A stretch of 40,531 nucleotides of DNA from a virus. The stretch is from positions 1-40,531 of IMG/VR virus record IMGVR_UViG_3300030118_003190. One strand, given 5' to 3'. The position numbers and the translations under genes are program-made. Below the pieces are notes generated by a model, which did no database searches, was not told where the DNA came from, and was given only the letters and a program-made list of their open reading frames with translations. Position 1 is the first letter of the stretch. Each line of letters starts with the position of its first letter. This document shows, piece after piece, positions 3,664-40,531 of the stretch.

Positions 3664-4166
3664 CATACAAAGGTACATTTCCATACCCTCCTATGTTTGA
3701 GGTATTAGCAGATGAGTTAGCAGAGGTTAGGAGTATATTGTCTGCGGATATATATAAAGAAGGAACGGAAAAGTTTAGAGGCTCTAGGGAGCATGAAATA
3801 TCTAAATTAGGTATACTTGGAGAACTTATAGCAAGAGATTATTTATCTCTTAGACCTATAAATTTTAAGTGTGCAAAACTAATAGATGTAAAACCTGTAG
3901 TTGAACCCGACATTATATTAACAGATGTTGCTAAATTTGCTAATCTAGATGTTAAATGTGTAAAACTAGGTGGGAAATATTTTAATGTAAACTATGATGC
4001 ATTTAATAATGAAAACAAAAAAGTAGATGTATATTGGTTTGTTAAGTTAGAAAGGAATTATGAGGCATCTCACTATTTGTATACAGATGTAGAAGTAAAG
4101 AGGGATTTTAAGGTAGTAGACTTAACATATACAAAAGCCTACAGTATAGATGCACCTACTTTATAG
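3660..4166 (+). CDS. putative PD-(D/E)XK nuclease-like protein
   Basis: A 168-residue last gene of the right arm, coupled by ATGA to the resolvase. I see a pattern compatible with the PD-(D/E)XK nuclease fold: E55 in GILGELIARDYL (helix), D84 in VVEPDIIL (strand), then D97-x-K99 in NLDVKCVK on the next strand, followed by a beta-rich stretch ending in aromatic residues (VDVYWFVKL). The order and spacing fit, but the family is very divergent and this is not proof. It could be a replication nuclease, a minimal restriction-type enzyme, or structurally related without activity. Its end overlaps the giant gene on the other strand by 11 bases. Confidence 0.5.
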   Translation: MTYKGTFPYPPMFEVLADELAEVRSILSADIYKEGTEKFRGSREHEISKLGILGELIARDYLSLRPINFKCAKLIDVKPVVEPDIILTDVAKFANLDVKCVKLGGKYFNVNYDAFNNENKKVDVYWFVKLERNYEASHYLYTDVEVKRDFKVVDLTYTKAYSIDAPTL

Positions 4167-7100
4167 TTTTCAATCTTCTTAAATCAGATTTCATCATATT
4201 AGATTGTCTAGTATATTCTTTAAAACTATAGCCAAAACCCATTAATGTTCCTCTTGGTGCGAACATCATACCATCTGAAAATATTTTGCCATCTTCATAA
4301 TAGTTTTCTCTATACTTTTGTCTATACTTTCTTCTTGAACTTTTGATTTTTCGCATAGTGTAATGGTATTGTTTTTCCATCTTAACTGCTCTTTCATGCA
4401 TATCTGCATCTCTATTTTTAAGCCATTTCAAATATTCTCTTTTTTTAGATGCAAGTGTTATATTGCCTAATCCCGCATCTTCTAGATTTATAGGGTTTAG
4501 ATTTTTCAATAAAGAGTTTATTTGTTGTTCTGCTGCTTTTTCTGCATGTCTATGGCTTTTCATAGTTTGACCTCCAACAAATCTATGTTGGTCATATAAG
4601 TAATAATATAATGCTTCTATATATTGTGCTGCAGACTCCGTGTTACCACTATAGAATGCTTCTTTTACATAATCATAATATCTAGATTTTTCATGTGTAT
4701 AACTAAACCCTTCTGCGTAACCTTCTTTTTCTCTCCATCCACTTTCTTCCATCCATAATTTTTTAGCAGAACGTAATGCATCATAAGTTGGTTTTACATT
4801 TTCGGAAAAGTTTTTTCTAAAGAATCTATGAGAGTGATTAAATATAACACCCATATCTCTTACACTTTGCTCTAAACCTTTTCCTATAGTTCTTTTTGCA
4901 TTTCTATTTCCTGTAATAGCATTCAATGTTTCCATAGTAAGTTGACTAACAACGGCAGCATTTCTAATAATAGCAGGTTGTAATATCGCATCTCCCGAAC
5001 CCATAACATAACTTGCTAAACCTTTGCTATCGCCTGTGCTAGAATATGGATTTACTAAATATCCAAACAAACCTAAAGTTTCTGCTTTTGAAAAATTAGA
5101 AAATACTCTAGTCTTCAAATCATCACTCAATGCTTTTGGATTCTCTTGCCCAAACAACATTGCATATATAGACCATAAAGCACTACCCATAGCATTACCC
5201 GCTATACCATATCTTACTATAGGTAAAACATTTCCTCTTGTTGCAGGTTTAATCATATTGTTATAGATATTGTGAGTTCCACTATATGCCATTCTATAAA
5301 ACAATGTTAAAGACCTACCAACACCACTTTGCATCCATATAGGTAAAAATGGTTCGGCAGTAGCACCTTGAGTTTTTATATGAGAATAGTGAGCCACTTT
5401 ATCCATTAACTTTTTAATTTCTCTATCTATGTTCTTACCTTGTTTACCTTTTATGCCATGAGCACCTTCTGTGAGACCATAGTTTCTTATAAAGGCTATA
5501 TCTTTATCTTTAAGATTAAATAATCCTTTTAATTGAGCAATCGCTTCCGACTCTCTAGTTTTAAAGATACTTTGTTTTCTTCCACTTAAAACATCTCCTA
5601 ATCCTTGAGCGGTCATTTTACCTGCACCAACAGATACAAATCTATTAGTAGCCTCCGAACCCGTCATTCTACTTACATTATCCATCCACCATTTACCAAA
5701 ACCTGTAAGTTCTAGTTCTTTAGCACCTACTTCTCTACCACCTAATTTAGTAACATAATCTCTAAACTCGGGTTTCATTGACATAGACATACCCGCTAAA
5801 AATGGACTAACACCAAATGTTCCTGCGGTCATAGCAGAACCTATAACAAGGTTTTTGAGACCCGACATTGGAGAAGATAGACCTAGTATAGCAGAATATT
5901 TAGTAGCACTACCTAAAACATCATTTCCTAAACTTTCCATAGCACCCGTTCTGTTCATACCAAGCCTAGACTTTAGCATAGTAAGAGCATAATTACCCGC
6001 ATACGAATCAGTTTCTAGTTGTTTAAGTATATCTCTTGCAGTTCTTCCTGTAGAAAACTCTCCTTTAATATCCGAAAACTCATTAAAATGTTTTACAGTT
6101 GCAAGGAATCCCGACATTGTTCTAATGTATCTACCCGAAACTTTTTCAAAATCAGTTTTGTATGTTCTTTGCTCTTTTCCATTCACATCTATAAATGTGT
6201 TTTCCATTTTAGGCATTCTTTTTAGTAAGAACTTGTTTCTAATGCTATAGTTAGGTCTCTCTAATAATTGCATTGCTAATGTAGATGCCTCATTTTCTAT
6301 CTTCTTACCTCTTTGAGTTTTGGCATCCATTAGTATACTAACTTCTTCTGCTTGTTTTACTTTTAATTTTGCTATTTGTTCGTTAATACTTTTTCTAGAA
6401 CTTTCTGTCCTAGCATTAGCAAGTTTTTCTCTAAGTGCTTCTATCTTTACACCAAAAGTTTGTTTCATACCTTGTTTAACTATATCGTTTTTAATTTGTT
6501 TTACAAATTGCTCTCTTCCGTCTCCTCCTAAACTAAAATGCTCTCTTGCTTCATCTGTATAAATTCTAGTGTAATATTGATTCACAAACTTTTTACTATA
6601 CTCTCTTCTAAAAGTCTCAAATTCTCTTTTGTTCAATACACCTCGTGCTTCCATGAAAAGGTTTTCATACATTTTGTCAAACATTTTTTGTATTGACTTT
6701 TTAGCCTTATATGCATTTGTTCCTTTTATTTCTGCTCTATCTAAAAATCTTTGCTCCCATTTTTCAAACTTTATATCTTTTGCTAAACTAGGGTCTAAAG
6801 TGAATGCAAGTAAGTCTGATATTTTCTTTGCATGTATACCACCTGCTATACCAGCCCTAGTGTTCTTTTTAGCATAAGCCACTATATGTTCCATAGATTT
6901 CATAATTTGATATTGACCATAACCAAAATATGCAGCCTCGGTTTGAAAGTGGTCTAAAAATTTATCTGCTAATCTTTCTCCTTTTTTTCCAGGAATAAGT
7001 TTTCTTAACATGACATCTCCAGGCAATAGTGCCATTTGAGCAAGTAACTTTAACTTTTTAAATGTAGATTTATTTTTATACATATCATTCATCTCTTGCA

Positions 7101-10100
7101 TTGCTCTATCGGAAAATATCTTTTGTGTAATATTATCTCTAGATTCTAGTTTAGATAAAAAATGTATATATGATTTTAATTGTTGCTCACTAGCAGATGC
7201 TAAAGAAACATTTTTACCTTTAGGCTTGATAAGACCAAGTGCCTCGCCTATAGCATTCTTTTGTGTGCTAGTTATATCCTTAACTTTTTCTAGTAAGTGT
7301 GCTTGACCATTTAAGGCATTCCAACTTGGTTCTCTTTTAAACTTTCCTTTTGATACACTTTTAACAGAAGATAATAAGTTAGTAAGTTGTATACCTTCAA
7401 CTTCGGACATATTACCTAATGCTAATTCTTTTGGAAGTTTAGCAGTTACAAGTGCAGTTCTAAATTGCTCTTCTGTTAATCCTATACGTTTAACATGTTT
7501 TTCGATTTGTTTTTTAGTATCTTTCGTTAAAGGAAATGCATCCGCCATATCTAATGACTTCATTCTACCTTGCATAGATTTATTTATAGCATCTAAAGAC
7601 ACTTTGAAATTTGCATTTGGATTATAGCCTACTTGAGACTTTTTGCCTATAATAGATACTATTTCAGGTAATCCTGCTTTTCCAAAGAATGCTTTTATAC
7701 TAGATACAAATGACTCTCCCCACATTCTAAGTTTTTGAAAACCTTTTGCACTATCATATCTGTTTGCCCATACAGCACCTAACTCAGTTAAATACTCTCT
7801 ATTTGCTTCTATTTCTAATTGTTTTCTACTTAATGGCTTTTGACCCGCCTTTGCTCTTTCTGCTTGTATATCTTTCTTATATGCCTCTACAGTTCTAGTG
7901 TAGTTAGCCTTATCATTTGACATTCCATATTGTTTGGCAAGTTTAATACCTCTATCGAATAAAGCGGTGAGTTTTTTATCACCTAATGCTCTTACATATC
8001 TTTCTATATTATGTATGTTTTCGTGAAAGAACTCTTTAGCAGTTGCTTTACCTGCTACTAACTCTACAACACCATCTCTAAATTGTGCTTTAAAGTTTCC
8101 TTCTTTTGCTTCAATTTCTTTTATCTTACCTTTTAATGTAGGGTTCTTACTTTCCCACTCATTAAATCTATTTTTTAAAGATTGCTCGTTTGTTCTATTA
8201 CCTTTACTATCAATTAAATCTAAAGACTTTTGTGTAGTTTGTCCCTTTTTCTTACCAACCGCAGCCTCATCTCCTATTTTTCTCATAAACTCACTTACTG
8301 CGTTTTCAGTCTTTTCTGTAAGTTTTAAATCTTTATTTGTTCTAAATGCTTTTTCTATTTCACGTCTAATTTCATTTGCTATCTTAGGATTTACTTGTCC
8401 ATTTTTTTCTAAATATCTAGCAGTAGCACTAGATGCATCAACGTGGTTTAAAAAATATCTTTTAGCAAAGTTAAAATAATCTTGAGACTTGCCACCAAGC
8501 ATAGCATCTACAAGGACAGAACCTTGTGTTAGTGAGTGTCTAAATCTATGAGGAGTTAAACCTTCAACCCCTACAAAATTATTTAAAATAGTTTGTATAT
8601 GGGTTCTTGTTAGTTTACCTGCTTTAGATGGAGTTTTTCCTGTTGTTGAACTATGAACTTCTAATAATTTTTGTTTACCATGTTGAGTTGTAGTTAGTTT
8701 TGCATTTGTAGACTCTATTTCTCTCTTGTTCACTAAAGCATCTAATACTTTAAAATAGTTTACTCCATTTAATTCTGCAATATCTTCAACTCTTATAGTC
8801 TTTTCAAATAAAGGTTTGTCTCCAGATTTTGCTTTATTATAACCTTTTTCTCGTGTCTTTATTAATGCATACGACTCGCCTTTCTTATTAGACCTAGAAA
8901 ATGATACGTCTTCGATTAGTATTCCAGGTTGACTTTTTGCTTTTCCTCCTACTATAGCAACTTGTCTAGAGCCATGATGACCAATAAGATGAGATATAAG
9001 TTGAACTGCTTCGTTGTGCATATAAGTCGTATTATTAATTTTCATAGTACCTTCTACAACTCTACCTCTATCTGTTCCTTTAGTATTTTGACCACCTATT
9101 TTAGCAGTATTGTTTATACTTGTATCAAATGAAGCCAATTCTTTAGGCTCTAATGTTACTACTTTTTTAGGTTCAAAGGTTTCAGCCTCTCTAACTTTCA
9201 TTTCTGATGCACTTAAAACATTTTTAGATATTGCTTTGCCTTGAGTAAATTTCATAAGTCTTTGCATATGAGCAGCATATGTTGCATTACCAACTATATC
9301 ATTAATAAACTCTTGAGCATCTTTACCTGTAAAGTTTCTTAAAGAAACACTTCCCCTATTATCCGCTAACCATTTAGCAAATCTTTTGTATAATGGAATT
9401 TGGCTTTTAGTAGATTCTCCTGACAAGGCAGCAACAGAAGTTAATACATCTTTATTTTCTTTGTTTAATTTAGAAGAAGAATGAGTTTCAGAATTGTTAA
9501 TTATTTCTAAAACTTCTTCATTTTTTTTACCTTTTAATCTAGATTGTGCATCTATAACAATGTTTTCAAATGAGTTTTCTTGTGCTTTTATTGTTCCTTC
9601 TTTAACACCTTCGACTAATTCTTTTTTAGTCATCTCTTTTACAGGCTTAGAATCTTCTTTTTCTTTAGCAGCACGTTCTTGCATTTCTTTAAGTTTTGCA
9701 TCTTCTGCTTTGATTCTTTCCGATGAAATCTTTTCAACAACTAATGGAATGTTTTCTTTTATAGTATTGATTTGTTTATTGAATTGTTCTAAGGTAGGAG
9801 ACAATACATTATCTTCTTTTAAAGTTGTCTCTATAATTTCTTTTTGAAACTTGTCATAAAGTTTTTCAAATTCTGCATGTTTTTTACCACCCCAATCTTG
9901 CTTGGCATTCATCTCTACCATTTGTTGGAATAGTTTAGCACCTTTAACCTCAAGACCTTCAGTACTTTTAGTTCTTTCTCCTTTAACTTGTTCTAAAGTT
10001 TCATTTATAATCTTATCGGCTTTTGTCTCGCCTTCTGCTTTTATATTCTCAAAATCTTTTTTAGTTTTTTTATCTTGATTAATCTTACGTTCAGATGCTT

Positions 10101-11529
10101 TTCCTATATACTCTACTAATGCTTTATTTCCTATTTGTTTAGCCTTAGCCTTTGCTTGGTTAACAACTCTCATACCTTTAAATTGTACAAGATTTTTTAC
10201 AAATGTTTTACCCCAACCATCTTCATGCTCTGCTAGTTCTTCGTCATATGCAAAATCTGTTGCTTTTCTAAATGCAGAACCCGCTTTATGTGATACTGTA
10301 AATATACCCGCTTCTATGGGCAAATCGGCACGTTGATTAGTAATAGCCTTAACAACACTACTCCTAACAGGTTTAGACATAAATGTTTCATAATTTTTCA
10401 TTCTATCTAATGCACCTACTCTAGATGCTCTTGATAAAGAAGAAAAACCTCCTGCCATAAATCCACCAATCCAACCTTCTCCCGCAGCCATTATAACATT
10501 TTGTATATCATCTGTTGTAAATGCCTCTCCAAATCCTTGTCCCGTTTCCTTGAATCTACTAAATATAGTTTGTGCTAGGTCTTGACCAAAAGGTTGACCT
10601 GTTTCGGGATTAATTTTTTGAGCAATATTGTTTACAACTTCTTGTAAAGCAGCAGCAGTACCTCCATGTAATGCTAATTGATTAGCCATAGGTAATCCAC
10701 CCATAGCAAATATCCTTCTCATTCCAGGTGCACCAACTTCTACTACATGCTTTTTGCCACCTATTGTTAAAGTTTTCTTTAGACCATGAGACATCACTTC
10801 AGGACTAGATAGCATTGTTTTTAAGGTTTTTTTAGAGTTAGATAAACTAGCAGAATGTAATCTATTTATTGTTGCTATATCTACAGCATCATCTGTTTTT
10901 TTGAGTAATTCTTTTTTTATAGCACCCTTAGACATATTCTTTTTTATAGTGCTATTAATTGTTTTTTTGGATATAGTGTTAAAAGCATTTTCTTTTAAAG
11001 TATCTTTGAACATATATCTAGAAATTTGTTTAGCAGCCTCTTTTTTTGCAACACCTCCCGCTACGGCAGTAGTTAACCCTAGCCCACCTGTAGCCCAAAA
11101 GAAAGGTATATCATGAACTAAACTTGAAACAAATTCAATAGTTCCTTGAGCAAGTCCAGGGTCATAACTATCACTAACTTTACCTCCATATATACCATCA
11201 GATAAATCATTACCTAAAACAATCTTTTTAGCCAAACCTGTTACAGAATGATTAGCACCCGCTTTCCATGCATCTCCAAAAAAACTAGGACTAACATCAT
11301 TTTCTCTTTCAGATTCGGGAACTATATCATCGTAATCATCAAGTTTTAAATGCTCAAAAGTTTGTTTTTCTGTAAATGCATATTGTCCGCCATATTTGGC
11401 TTTTGCATAAGATTGTAAGGCATAGGGGTTAGTATCATAATCGGGAGCATTTGGGTTTTGCTCCTGTACTCTTCTTAAAAACATTTCATGTTCATCATCT
11501 CTAATGACGATTTTACTAAAACTAGACAT
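4156..11529 (-). CDS. giant internal/ejection protein with recombinase-like and metallopeptidase-like domains
   Basis: A 2457-residue last gene of the late operon, about 18 percent of the window. It follows three other putative internal virion proteins, so it is probably packaged and injected with the DNA. From N to C: a soluble start; a hydrophobic glycine-rich patch (about 140-162); a lysine/glutamate coiled-coil region (about 450-650); a tyrosine-recombinase-like module (about 708-1045) with H994-x2-R997, H1029 and Y1039; a zincin-like HENIH at 1169-1173 with later glutamates around E1246-E1249; and a long helical C-terminal half with two strongly hydrophobic segments (about 1878-1915 and 2101-2127) that could insert in the membrane. 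GGAG lies just upstream of ATG 11529. The multi-domain design matches what has been called a phage polyvalent protein. The enzymatic domains are motif-based inference. Confidence 0.85.
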   Translation of the reverse strand: MSSFSKIVIRDDEHEMFLRRVQEQNPNAPDYDTNPYALQSYAKAKYGGQYAFTEKQTFEHLKLDDYDDIVPESERENDVSPSFFGDAWKAGANHSVTGLAKKIVLGNDLSDGIYGGKVSDSYDPGLAQGTIEFVSSLVHDIPFFWATGGLGLTTAVAGGVAKKEAAKQISRYMFKDTLKENAFNTISKKTINSTIKKNMSKGAIKKELLKKTDDAVDIATINRLHSASLSNSKKTLKTMLSSPEVMSHGLKKTLTIGGKKHVVEVGAPGMRRIFAMGGLPMANQLALHGGTAAALQEVVNNIAQKINPETGQPFGQDLAQTIFSRFKETGQGFGEAFTTDDIQNVIMAAGEGWIGGFMAGGFSSLSRASRVGALDRMKNYETFMSKPVRSSVVKAITNQRADLPIEAGIFTVSHKAGSAFRKATDFAYDEELAEHEDGWGKTFVKNLVQFKGMRVVNQAKAKAKQIGNKALVEYIGKASERKINQDKKTKKDFENIKAEGETKADKIINETLEQVKGERTKSTEGLEVKGAKLFQQMVEMNAKQDWGGKKHAEFEKLYDKFQKEIIETTLKEDNVLSPTLEQFNKQINTIKENIPLVVEKISSERIKAEDAKLKEMQERAAKEKEDSKPVKEMTKKELVEGVKEGTIKAQENSFENIVIDAQSRLKGKKNEEVLEIINNSETHSSSKLNKENKDVLTSVAALSGESTKSQIPLYKRFAKWLADNRGSVSLRNFTGKDAQEFINDIVGNATYAAHMQRLMKFTQGKAISKNVLSASEMKVREAETFEPKKVVTLEPKELASFDTSINNTAKIGGQNTKGTDRGRVVEGTMKINNTTYMHNEAVQLISHLIGHHGSRQVAIVGGKAKSQPGILIEDVSFSRSNKKGESYALIKTREKGYNKAKSGDKPLFEKTIRVEDIAELNGVNYFKVLDALVNKREIESTNAKLTTTQHGKQKLLEVHSSTTGKTPSKAGKLTRTHIQTILNNFVGVEGLTPHRFRHSLTQGSVLVDAMLGGKSQDYFNFAKRYFLNHVDASSATARYLEKNGQVNPKIANEIRREIEKAFRTNKDLKLTEKTENAVSEFMRKIGDEAAVGKKKGQTTQKSLDLIDSKGNRTNEQSLKNRFNEWESKNPTLKGKIKEIEAKEGNFKAQFRDGVVELVAGKATAKEFFHENIHNIERYVRALGDKKLTALFDRGIKLAKQYGMSNDKANYTRTVEAYKKDIQAERAKAGQKPLSRKQLEIEANREYLTELGAVWANRYDSAKGFQKLRMWGESFVSSIKAFFGKAGLPEIVSIIGKKSQVGYNPNANFKVSLDAINKSMQGRMKSLDMADAFPLTKDTKKQIEKHVKRIGLTEEQFRTALVTAKLPKELALGNMSEVEGIQLTNLLSSVKSVSKGKFKREPSWNALNGQAHLLEKVKDITSTQKNAIGEALGLIKPKGKNVSLASASEQQLKSYIHFLSKLESRDNITQKIFSDRAMQEMNDMYKNKSTFKKLKLLAQMALLPGDVMLRKLIPGKKGERLADKFLDHFQTEAAYFGYGQYQIMKSMEHIVAYAKKNTRAGIAGGIHAKKISDLLAFTLDPSLAKDIKFEKWEQRFLDRAEIKGTNAYKAKKSIQKMFDKMYENLFMEARGVLNKREFETFRREYSKKFVNQYYTRIYTDEAREHFSLGGDGREQFVKQIKNDIVKQGMKQTFGVKIEALREKLANARTESSRKSINEQIAKLKVKQAEEVSILMDAKTQRGKKIENEASTLAMQLLERPNYSIRNKFLLKRMPKMENTFIDVNGKEQRTYKTDFEKVSGRYIRTMSGFLATVKHFNEFSDIKGEFSTGRTARDILKQLETDSYAGNYALTMLKSRLGMNRTGAMESLGNDVLGSATKYSAILGLSSPMSGLKNLVIGSAMTAGTFGVSPFLAGMSMSMKPEFRDYVTKLGGREVGAKELELTGFGKWWMDNVSRMTGSEATNRFVSVGAGKMTAQGLGDVLSGRKQSIFKTRESEAIAQLKGLFNLKDKDIAFIRNYGLTEGAHGIKGKQGKNIDREIKKLMDKVAHYSHIKTQGATAEPFLPIWMQSGVGRSLTLFYRMAYSGTHNIYNNMIKPATRGNVLPIVRYGIAGNAMGSALWSIYAMLFGQENPKALSDDLKTRVFSNFSKAETLGLFGYLVNPYSSTGDSKGLASYVMGSGDAILQPAIIRNAAVVSQLTMETLNAITGNRNAKRTIGKGLEQSVRDMGVIFNHSHRFFRKNFSENVKPTYDALRSAKKLWMEESGWREKEGYAEGFSYTHEKSRYYDYVKEAFYSGNTESAAQYIEALYYYLYDQHRFVGGQTMKSHRHAEKAAEQQINSLLKNLNPINLEDAGLGNITLASKKREYLKWLKNRDADMHERAVKMEKQYHYTMRKIKSSRRKYRQKYRENYYEDGKIFSDGMMFAPRGTLMGFGYSFKEYTRQSNMMKSDLRRLKTIK

Positions 11530-11554: not shown

Positions 11555-13447
11555 TTACTCTCTGTTAACTCTTGACCCCGAACGTGATTCTCCTGCTACT
11601 TTTATTAATCCGTCTCTCTCAAGTTCTTCTTGATTTTTTCTAGAACCATCAGGGTTGTAATACTTACTTCCTTCTTCATCCATCAACATTTTTATATCAT
11701 GCTCTGATACAGGTGCATCATTTACATCATATGTAGATTTAGATTTATATCTACCCGACATAGCCTTTAGATATTCTTTTCTAAACTTGTCAATTTGATT
11801 TAAAACTCTTTGTATTTGTTTTGTAGATGCATTACCTTCCAACATCATTTTTCTAAATGCTTCTTGGTTTTCTGCCATAAAACGACCATCAGGGTTACCT
11901 ACATATTCTTTAATATATTGCAATGCTTCAGGTGGGTAATCCTCAATATCTAAACCTGTAATTTTCTTTATAGTGGTTGTTAGTTTGTTAGATGAAGTTA
12001 TTAATTTTTGTTGCCCTTTTTCTGTCATATCATAAAAGAATGGAGTAGGTACTTGACCTCCTAGCACTTCCATTTGTTCATCACTAGGTTTTGGTGCATT
12101 CTTATTTTTCTCCATAGCATTTGTTATATTTTCAAAATGATTCTTTAAAGATTTGCCATTTATTTTATAATCCATTATAGCATCTTCTTCATTCATTCCT
12201 GCTATCATATTATATGTTTTCATAAATTCTGCGTTTTGCTTATCATCTGTAAGTAATTGAGGTTTTAATTCTGCAACTCTTGCTAATTTAGCAACATCTT
12301 TTTCTAGGTCAAAAACCCTATAAGGCTTTCCATCATCACTTTCAAAACCTTGAACAATAGTACTCTTTCTTATATCTTTAGTTTTATAATTGCTTCCTAC
12401 ACCGCCAATTTTATCATCAGGATTTTGTGATTGATTGCTTAAACCTAACGGGTCATTAGAATCTTTATCTGACCCTCCACCATAACCTAAATAAGATGAA
12501 CTTAATTCATCATATAACATAGATTCAATTCTTCTTTTTTCATCAATTTGTTCTTGAAGAAAATCCATTTTACCTTTTATATCAGAAGCAGCCTTAAACT
12601 CTTGGTCGCTTAAATTTCCTTGTGCCTCTTCTAAAGATAAAAACTCGTTTCCAAGTATACCATCAAGTTGTTGTTGATAGTTAAACATTTCTCTAGACAT
12701 ACCATCTAATTCATCAGACAATTTACCATGTTTAGTGCTTAGTTTCATACCTTCATTCGATAACCTAAACTCCATATCTGTAATAGTTCCGCCACCCGCT
12801 ACATAAGTTTTTAAGGTTTCTAATTGACTTATGCTAGTTGCAAGAGAATTTTTAGTAAAATCATCTAATCTATTGTCTTCTCTCAACTTTCTACCTAATG
12901 TCTCATAATACTCTATACCTTCATCCATTTTAGCAACTAAATCTTTACCTTTTAATCCTTCACTATCATATTTACCACCTTCTACAAACGATTCAGCACT
13001 ATAATTTTCTAAATATTCTGTTCCATCATCTTGTGTTCTTTTTAATATAGGATTATTAACCATATCTAAATGCTTTGCAACTCTTCTGTTTGTTGTTTCC
13101 GCTTTTTCTAGATTATTCATTTTATTTTTTAAAATTTGCGAATAACCAGGCATAGCATCTGCTTTTGTCATATCACTTTTAGCGATTCTTTCAATTCTTT
13201 CTCTAGCCTGTGCTACACTATTCGGGTCATTAGCATCATAATCAACAGAGTTAAGCACATCTATTTTATATTGCTCTTCTTGCCTAATTGCTATACGTTT
13301 TTGCTCTTGAATCTCTCCATACTTTTGCATAGCACCTAAAGCAGTATCCATAACTGCCGTATATATATCTCCACCTCTCTCAAACTTTTTATCAAGTAAA
13401 GATAAATCGCTATCTGTAGTTATATCATCTAGTTTAAATTCACTCAT
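11555..13447 (-). CDS. putative internal virion protein, coiled-coil
   Basis: A 630-residue hydrophilic, mostly helical protein without a signal peptide, membrane segment or recognisable enzyme motif. The N-terminal third is rich in charged heptads (for example EIQEQKRIAIRQEEQYKIDV). The middle has QA/EL-rich helices and a glycine/serine linker (YLGYGGGSDKD), and the C-terminus is basic and serine-rich. It sits between the 281-residue virion protein, with which it shares a 4-base overlap, and the giant protein. This position is typical of podoviral ejection or core proteins. By analogy with T7 gp15/gp16 order it may form part of the internal core; no sequence similarity is claimed. Confidence 0.65.
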   Translation of the reverse strand: MSEFKLDDITTDSDLSLLDKKFERGGDIYTAVMDTALGAMQKYGEIQEQKRIAIRQEEQYKIDVLNSVDYDANDPNSVAQARERIERIAKSDMTKADAMPGYSQILKNKMNNLEKAETTNRRVAKHLDMVNNPILKRTQDDGTEYLENYSAESFVEGGKYDSEGLKGKDLVAKMDEGIEYYETLGRKLREDNRLDDFTKNSLATSISQLETLKTYVAGGGTITDMEFRLSNEGMKLSTKHGKLSDELDGMSREMFNYQQQLDGILGNEFLSLEEAQGNLSDQEFKAASDIKGKMDFLQEQIDEKRRIESMLYDELSSSYLGYGGGSDKDSNDPLGLSNQSQNPDDKIGGVGSNYKTKDIRKSTIVQGFESDDGKPYRVFDLEKDVAKLARVAELKPQLLTDDKQNAEFMKTYNMIAGMNEEDAIMDYKINGKSLKNHFENITNAMEKNKNAPKPSDEQMEVLGGQVPTPFFYDMTEKGQQKLITSSNKLTTTIKKITGLDIEDYPPEALQYIKEYVGNPDGRFMAENQEAFRKMMLEGNASTKQIQRVLNQIDKFRKEYLKAMSGRYKSKSTYDVNDAPVSEHDIKMLMDEEGSKYYNPDGSRKNQEELERDGLIKVAGESRSGSRVNRE

Positions 13448-14289
13448 TTTAAATCCTTCTTAAAGTTCCTATATGCTCTATCCGAACCATCATATTTAAT
13501 TATTATATTTTTATATGCATCTAATATAAACCTAGGATTAGATTTAAATTTAGAGGCTAATTTCATACATTTACGATAGTTTAATGCAAATCCTATAACA
13601 CTTACATACTCAACAAAAAACTTAGTTATTTTATGTCTTTTCTTTCCTCTTACTACATTTATCCATTTATCCAAAATTAGACGTTTAATAAGTCTTGCAA
13701 ACCATTTTTTCTTTAACATCATATTGGCTACAGGTTTCCATGTAATTTGATAGCCTAGCCATTTAATATTACCAAGAAATTCTTTGTGCTGTGTTTTTAG
13801 TCTCCAAGATACAAACTCCATCATTTGAGACGAGTTTATTAAGCCTTGTTGATATGCAGCAGTAGAAAGAACACAAGAACCAGGTGGGTCTCCATCATCT
13901 TGTTTCATTTGTTTTAATGTTAATGCAGTTTGCCTATTAGATTGTATTACGTCATTTATCGTAGATTGTGCTTGTGTCATTTTTTGGTTAATGTCATCTT
14001 CAACTTTCACCATAGTTTCACCAAACTGTTGTTGCATAGCATCACTTTGCATATTTTGTGAACCACTACCTGCAAAGCCACTAGCATTTCCTCCGCTAGT
14101 TAAACCTAATTTATTTAAACTTTGAAAGTATTGTTGATTAGCACCTGTTTGAAACATTTCAAAATATGGTTGATAAGTCTGTCGTTTAGTTGCAGTACGA
14201 AGTGCTTGGTCTATAGGAGTAAATAAATCTTGCTCTTCTTGATTGTAACTTCCACTTATACCATAATTTTCTTCGTTGAAATCGGGCAT
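13444..14289 (-). CDS. virion protein with CFI-box-like C-terminal domain
   Basis: A 281-residue protein with two parts. Residues 1-130 are glutamine/asparagine/glycine-rich and helical (DFNEENYG, NQQYFQSLNKLGL, QMQ-rich), typical of internal virion proteins. From residue 139 it changes to SCVLSTAAYQ followed by aromatic/basic helices (FVSWRLKTQH, IKWLGYQITWKPVANM). This resembles the CFIATAAYG 'CFI-box' domain found at the C-terminus of many bacterial proteins, with the cysteine (C139), TAAY and the downstream WR/GY/P-x-A pattern kept. Function of that domain is unknown. The gene starts at a TAATG overlap with the previous gene, with GGAGGA as ribosome site, and overlaps the next by 4 bases. 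Confidence 0.65.
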   Translation of the reverse strand: MPDFNEENYGISGSYNQEEQDLFTPIDQALRTATKRQTYQPYFEMFQTGANQQYFQSLNKLGLTSGGNASGFAGSGSQNMQSDAMQQQFGETMVKVEDDINQKMTQAQSTINDVIQSNRQTALTLKQMKQDDGDPPGSCVLSTAAYQQGLINSSQMMEFVSWRLKTQHKEFLGNIKWLGYQITWKPVANMMLKKKWFARLIKRLILDKWINVVRGKKRHKITKFFVEYVSVIGFALNYRKCMKLASKFKSNPRFILDAYKNIIIKYDGSDRAYRNFKKDLK

Positions 14290-38175: not shown

Positions 38176-38204
38176 ATTATAAAGCATTAATAAAGCATTA
38201 ATAA
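38176..38204 (-). promoter_or_regulatory. candidate promoter for late operon
   Basis: On the minus strand a perfect TATAAT (38181-38176) lies 17 bases downstream of TTATTA (38204-38199), a poor -35 match. It would start transcription about 75 bases before the small terminase and lies within the TAAAGCATTA repeats, so binding of a regulator there could control it. Because the region is so AT-rich, the hit is weak evidence. Confidence 0.3.
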
Positions 38205-38244
38205 GTCTTATATAAGTCTTATTATAATACTTAATAAAGCATTA
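38180..38244. repeat. TAAAGCATTA iteron-like direct repeats
   Basis: Three exact copies of TAAAGCATTA at 38180-38189, 38191-38200 and 38235-38244. The first two are 11 bases apart (one helical turn). They flank the AATAAGTCTTAT palindrome pair. This is the look of iterons of an origin, or of operator sites. No initiator gene is recognised. Confidence 0.6.
38200..38223. repeat. 24-base near-palindrome (AATAAG-T-CTTAT tandem)
   Basis: The 24 bases read AATAAG-T-CTTATATAAG-T-CTTATT. They equal their own reverse complement except for the two single T positions. This can be seen as two overlapping odd palindromes AATAAGTCTTAT, a layout suited to a dimeric DNA-binding protein. Confidence 0.6.
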
Positions 38245-40514: not shown

Positions 40515-40531
40515 TTCTAGGTTAACTAGAT

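Follow-up and report, generated by a model that had tools for sequence, protein, structure and literature searches.

A putative tyrosine-recombinase module within a giant, possibly ejected protein of an uncultured tailed phage

The window analyzed here (bases 1-40531 of a 49,495-bp IMG/VR contig of an uncultured tailed phage) encodes a giant protein of 2457 amino acids that carries a predicted two-domain tyrosine-recombinase module (Table 1). The module is well supported, in that the catalytic pocket is conserved, relatives yield significant profile and fold matches at the corresponding place of the homologous protein, and homologous giant ORFs contain Pfam integrase matches. Together with an adjoining protease-like motif, it suggests that the phage may bring a preformed DNA-recombining enzyme with it into the host; tyrosine recombinases normally are made after entry, from free-standing genes. 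The reading that we favor, with about even confidence, is that of an ejected virion protein of the polyvalent type in a podovirus-like phage, combining the recombinase module with a zincin, with the module acting on DNA at entry. The first-pass annotation had described a full tyrosine recombinase and offered an integrase as one of its possible roles; the recombinase module stands, but an integrase in the lysogeny sense finds no support, as the domain lies inside a giant ORF, no free-standing int gene was found, and two scans that covered bacterial and archaeal genomes detected no member of the family. The accompanying statement that the genome has no other integrase was borne out by a search of the whole contig confined to PF00589; the same search found no standalone integrase in 23 other family contigs.

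On the structural strand, genes for terminase, portal, major head protein, and tail are followed by genes for proteins of 228, 281, and 630 amino acids and then by the giant ORF; the opposite strand carries genes for a helicase, a methyltransferase, a Holliday junction resolvase, and a nuclease. This succession of a small hydrophobic, a medium, and a very large protein, with which the structural run closes, resembles the order of the T7 internal virion protein genes (gp14-gp15-gp16). Unlike T7 gp16, to which it has no sequence match, the giant protein gave no transglycosylase match in Pfam or PHROG and indeed, over its whole length, no match to either collection. We infer packaging from its place as the last gene of the structural run, after three genes in T7-like order, and from its zincin-like motif. 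With packaging so derived, and late genes encoding non-virion proteins too, the giant protein might instead stay unpackaged, being made late so that its module resolves replication intermediates or multimers in the producing cell. This we consider unlikely: a giant product with a zincin motif whose gene closes the structural run is in keeping with ejected polyvalent proteins (PMC5512222), and the phage already has a gene for a Holliday junction resolvase. The 630-amino-acid neighbor, likewise without a match in Pfam and PHROG searches, is only 38% identical between the window and the phage of its relative L001, which makes it the fastest-diverging gene compared; most others are far more similar. 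Directly after window position 40531 the contig has an assembly gap (a run of 10 N), and at about 40.6-41.4 kb (L006, 598-1026 and 1004-1435) lie two genes, one encoding a pyrimidine dimer DNA glycosylase and the other a peptide deformylase, which are 99% and 97% identical in the relative.

Table 1. Positions in the window of the giant gene, its domains and candidate catalytic residues, and its neighbors
Feature	Position	Strand	Basis or remark
Giant protein (2457 aa), whose gene is the last of the structural run	4156..11529	-	ORF
SAM-like (core-binding) part, residues ~708-785	9175..9408	-	3-4 predicted helices in a low-confidence model; weak Phage_int_SAM Pfam matches in relatives
Catalytic part, residues ~786-1045	8395..9174	-	clade-invariant pocket; sister-clade fold/profile matches; L112 PF00589 match
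R855, ArgI	8965..8967	-	invariant in the five clade members
A858, at ArgI +3, where Asp/Glu is expected	8956-8958	-	Ala invariant in clade
K895, candidate beta-hairpin lysine, within REKG, where predicted strand 2 ends	8845..8847	-	clade-invariant
H994-x-x-R997, box II	8539..8550	-	H994 (8548-8550) and R997 (8539-8541) clade-invariant
H998, codon after R997	8536-8538	-	clade-invariant
H1029, HisIII	8443..8445	-	invariant in the five clade members
Y1039, candidate nucleophile at H+10	8413..8415	-	same in L001
Zincin-like metallopeptidase region, residues ~1128-1250, downstream of the recombinase domain	7780..8148	-	HExxH...E motif
H1169 E1170 x x H1173	8011-8025	-	HExxH
E1245	7795-7797	-	downstream Glu of the motif
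630-aa neighbor upstream of the giant gene, possible internal virion protein	11555..13447	-	position only
281-aa neighbor, possible internal virion protein	13444..14289	-	position only
228-aa neighbor, possible membrane-active internal virion protein with Gly/Ala-rich hydrophobic segment	14289..14975	-	hydrophobicity scan and position

Relatives of the giant protein were collected by starting from relatives of the portal gene, proceeding to their divergent giant proteins, and searching with a profile of the C-terminal region. A tblastn search with the giant proteins of the window and of two relatives gave no match among 50,697 cultured-phage records. The C-terminal profile, built on a large part of the giant protein that is conserved, recovered 27 viral contigs, and further scans added L141 and L161. 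In the tree of this region, the window groups with L001 (labelled L111 there), L141, L112, and L113 in one clade (support 100/99), the nearest relative being L001 (7703-15115), with which the giant protein shares 60% and the recombinase domain 44% identity. One lineage (L100 3825-10588, L101 1916-8583, L145, L146, and L155) has the giant protein split into adjacent ORFs of ca. 1200 and 1020 amino acids; in L100, remnants of the recombinase module were discerned by eye in the upstream ORF.

The module resembles the tyrosine recombinases (XerA, XerD, XerH, Cre, and the phage integrases; PF00589) in its order, a core-binding domain followed by a catalytic one, and in having the R, K, HxxR, H, and Y residues. 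It differs from them in being embedded in a 2457-residue protein of the structural region, where the known enzymes have 300 to 400 residues, in having Ala at the Asp/Glu position, and in reaching no Pfam cut-off. R855, H994, R997, H1029, and Y1039, all proposed in the first-pass annotation, lie where it placed them, and its candidate hairpin lysine corresponds to K895. The unusual spacings that it reported were confirmed as well, with 10 residues from His to Tyr and 32 from Arg to His (9 and 23 in XerH). In our alignment of the five clade members (window, L001, L141, L112, and L113; 370 columns, with 21-44% identity to the window's domain) only 17 columns are invariant, and these include R855, K895, H994, R997, H998, and H1029. 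Hence four of the five residues named beforehand are invariant (hypergeometric p ~1.5e-5), and the ArgI, Lys, HxxR, and His/Trp signature of tyrosine recombinases is represented throughout the clade by R855, K895, H994, R997, and H1029. Within the clade, the conservation expected in homologues was seen for all but the tyrosine; of the five members, three have it displaced or lack it. L001 keeps all five residues in a domain 44% identical to that of the window; in L141 the tyrosine is at H+14, in L113 possibly at H+16, and in L112 it is absent.

When the window is compared with L001, few stretches of the giant protein prove less conserved than the recombinase domain. Between the two phages, the terminase is 96%, the helicase 91%, and the portal 86% identical, and the recombinase domain 35-48% (per 100 residues); the pocket residues therefore persist in a fast-changing region. 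Such rapid divergence between close relatives would suit a weapon directed at the host, i.e. a delivered recombinase acting on host chromosomal sites such as dif, or nicking host DNA. Polyvalent proteins have been interpreted as conflict effectors (PMC5512222), and still we think this role quite improbable here.

The firmer evidence for the fold comes from the sister clade, at the corresponding place of the homologous protein. Its ten domains share eight invariant columns, among them ArgI, the Glu at its +3 position, HisIII, and Tyr. Searched against the PDB, the sister-clade profile finds tyrosine recombinases only (best an XerA-type enzyme, E=3.7e-4), and it recovers two members outside the set from which it was built (L126, 4e-8; L117, 4e-6). 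The AlphaFold model of the sister-clade domain (pLDDT 80) has tyrosine recombinases as all of its top 17 PDB fold matches (XerA, Cre and variants thereof, SroF, and the Tn1549 Int), and in a fold search of a viral library phage integrases lead, with nudivirus VLF-1 among the matches. Whole-length TM-scores are low (~0.3), so that the match rests on the Foldseek local score and probability and not on global superposition. Among 18 family members, the commonest weak Pfam matches are to integrase models. In 24 family contigs, PF00589 matches occur only inside giant ORFs, namely those of L112, which belongs to the same clade as the window (E 5e-5 on a single-genome basis; 15-17 bits against a cut-off of 27.1), and of L120 (8e-4, also below the curated cut-off).

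The window's own domain is less eloquent. It has no match to PF00589, and neither the domain nor the small clade alignments retrieved a recombinase from protein families or PDB profiles; matches to RctB HTH_55, Rsa4, ribosomal L35, and a nucleoporin were set aside as chance, being weak, partial, and not common to the relatives. The model of the domain is of low confidence (pLDDT 41), but its helices and strands follow one another as in recombinases, and among PDB folds XerH matches it best (330 columns, E 0.043; the next match at 0.8). For the comparison with XerD and lambda integrase proposed in the first-pass annotation, hhalign against XerD plus lambda Int, run on alignments that were too shallow, gave nothing significant. 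The domain profiles of the window's clade and of the sister clade do not find each other, and the link between the clades therefore rests on position in a homologous protein; that one recombinase module has been replaced by another at this place would also be compatible with these profiles. An 18-sequence alignment spanning the family (A5) matched only unrelated entries of the PDB, and we left it out of all claims about residues because it misaligns box II between the two clades. With a sequence that by itself has no significant family match and a poor model, one might suppose that there is no recombinase fold in the window at all and that the motifs arose by chance. We hold this to be extremely unlikely in view of the invariance of four of the five residues named beforehand, the matches to recombinase folds and profiles that the homologous protein gives at this very place, the PF00589 match of clade member L112, and the ranking of XerH as best match even for the poor model.

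A more serious question is whether the fold still is catalytic. In active tyrosine recombinases the third position after ArgI is Asp or Glu (PMC10516654); this position is Ala throughout the window's clade and an invariant Glu in the sister clade. In the latter, the box II His is replaced, and the box II Arg is shifted by one position in L116, L118, L124, and L125. No HisIII...Tyr motif was seen in L117, L120, and L121; L099, L100, and L123 have only a partial recombinase domain, as judged by eye; and L114, L127, L128, L129, and L132 have shorter giant proteins that lack HExxH and match neither domain profile. With the module degraded or lost in some lineages, the domain is accessory and dispensable, and different lineages have kept different catalytic residues. 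The main rival to our reading, possible although we do not think it probable, is that the recombinase fold was kept as a catalytically dead module for DNA binding or structure, which might for example attach the ejected protein to the genome as it enters. The Ala, the drifting or missing tyrosine of the window's clade, and the altered box II of the sister clade all favor it, and MrpR of SPbeta offers a precedent, having lost catalysis and retained DNA binding without recombining (PMC10516654). Like the window's module, MrpR and SroF of Phi3T are phage-encoded proteins of recombinase fold (SroF is among the sister-clade fold matches); MrpR, however, is a free-standing regulator without several of the catalytic residues, and the window's module has retained R, K, H, R, H, and Y. 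Moreover, the invariance of R, K, H, R, and H at 21-44% identity is not obviously needed for DNA binding alone, and the tyrosine is kept in ten sister-clade sequences. The best reading is that of an ejected domain of recombinase fold that is active, or recently was.

Downstream of the recombinase domain, an alignment of 17 sequences has only five invariant columns, four of which hold H1169, E1170, H1173, and E1245. As the region has no match among Pfam and PDB profiles, our claim of a zincin is limited to the motif. The zincin pattern has been described for polyvalent proteins, and the authors propose that these peptidases process the polyvalent polypeptides (PMC5512222). The invariant HExxH...E after the recombinase domain points to a protein of the polyvalent type; these proteins unite several unrelated enzymatic domains, and here a recombinase module and HExxH...E occur in one ORF. 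The giant protein also resembles the phage polyvalent proteins (Iyer et al. 2017, PMC5512222) in being giant and multidomain, in its HExxH...E, and in being encoded near virion genes. It differs from them in that neither recombinases nor integrases appear in the main text of that study, and in that its zincin region has no Pfam match.

In the mechanism that we propose, the giant protein most likely would enter the cell together with the phage DNA; the recombinase module, perhaps freed by proteolysis, would then bind phage or host DNA, and in lineages with a whole pocket, such as that of the window, the DNA would be cleaved and rejoined through Y1039. A plausible job would be circularizing or resolving an incoming, circularly permuted genome, as Cre does for P1. 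The contig holding L001 (G001, 49,035 bp) and that of the window are circularly permuted relative to each other, both ends of the latter being adjacent inside G001, a map indistinguishable from that given by circular assembly of a genome with direct terminal repeats. The window's contig, which like that of L001 is near full length, has no exact terminal repeat of at least 15 bases; the permuted genome presumably is terminally redundant. Cre-like joining of permuted genome ends is an attractive but unproven idea. Proteolytic release, strand cleavage, and the target of the module are steps that we infer. The complete scenario, with a Cre-like recombinase prepackaged in a giant ejected protein, freed by the zincin of the same chain, and circularizing or resolving the genome before gene expression, we regard as doubtful.

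A search of the genomes of the window and of L001 for inverted repeats that might mark a recombination site turned up a few conserved palindromes, none of which stood out. With no defined site found, and with the catalytic fold shared by type IB enzymes, the module might be topoisomerase-like and merely relax DNA during entry without recombination; this is very unlikely, since the fold matches are to site-specific recombinases (Xer, Cre, and Int) with a core-binding domain. The intergenic region upstream of the gene for the small terminase subunit has an AT-rich pseudo-palindrome at 38199-38224, TAAGTCTTATATAAGTCTTA, whose aligned counterpart in G001, TAAGACTTATATAAGACTTA, is its exact reverse complement; hence, either two positions have undergone a coordinated change or an inversion of the core has taken place. 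The pseudo-palindrome is a candidate site for protein binding or recombination.

A known parallel for a virion role is VLF-1 of the baculo-like viruses, which belongs to the tyrosine recombinase superfamily and is a nucleocapsid component (PMC11654684, PMC3649998); unlike the module described here, it is a single-domain protein of insect viruses with a role in packaging. According to a 2024 paper, tyrosine recombinases have virion roles in the baculo-like viruses only, the authors knowing of none in other viruses, and our search of the open-access literature turned up no phage polyvalent or virion protein described as having a tyrosine recombinase domain. A recombinase-fold domain in the giant protein of this family of uncultured phages would extend the repertoire of polyvalent proteins by a new class of enzyme, and it would make the hypothesis of delivered recombination directly testable. 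With intact-looking, degraded, and deleted modules side by side, the family offers a natural series on the retention and loss of such a domain.
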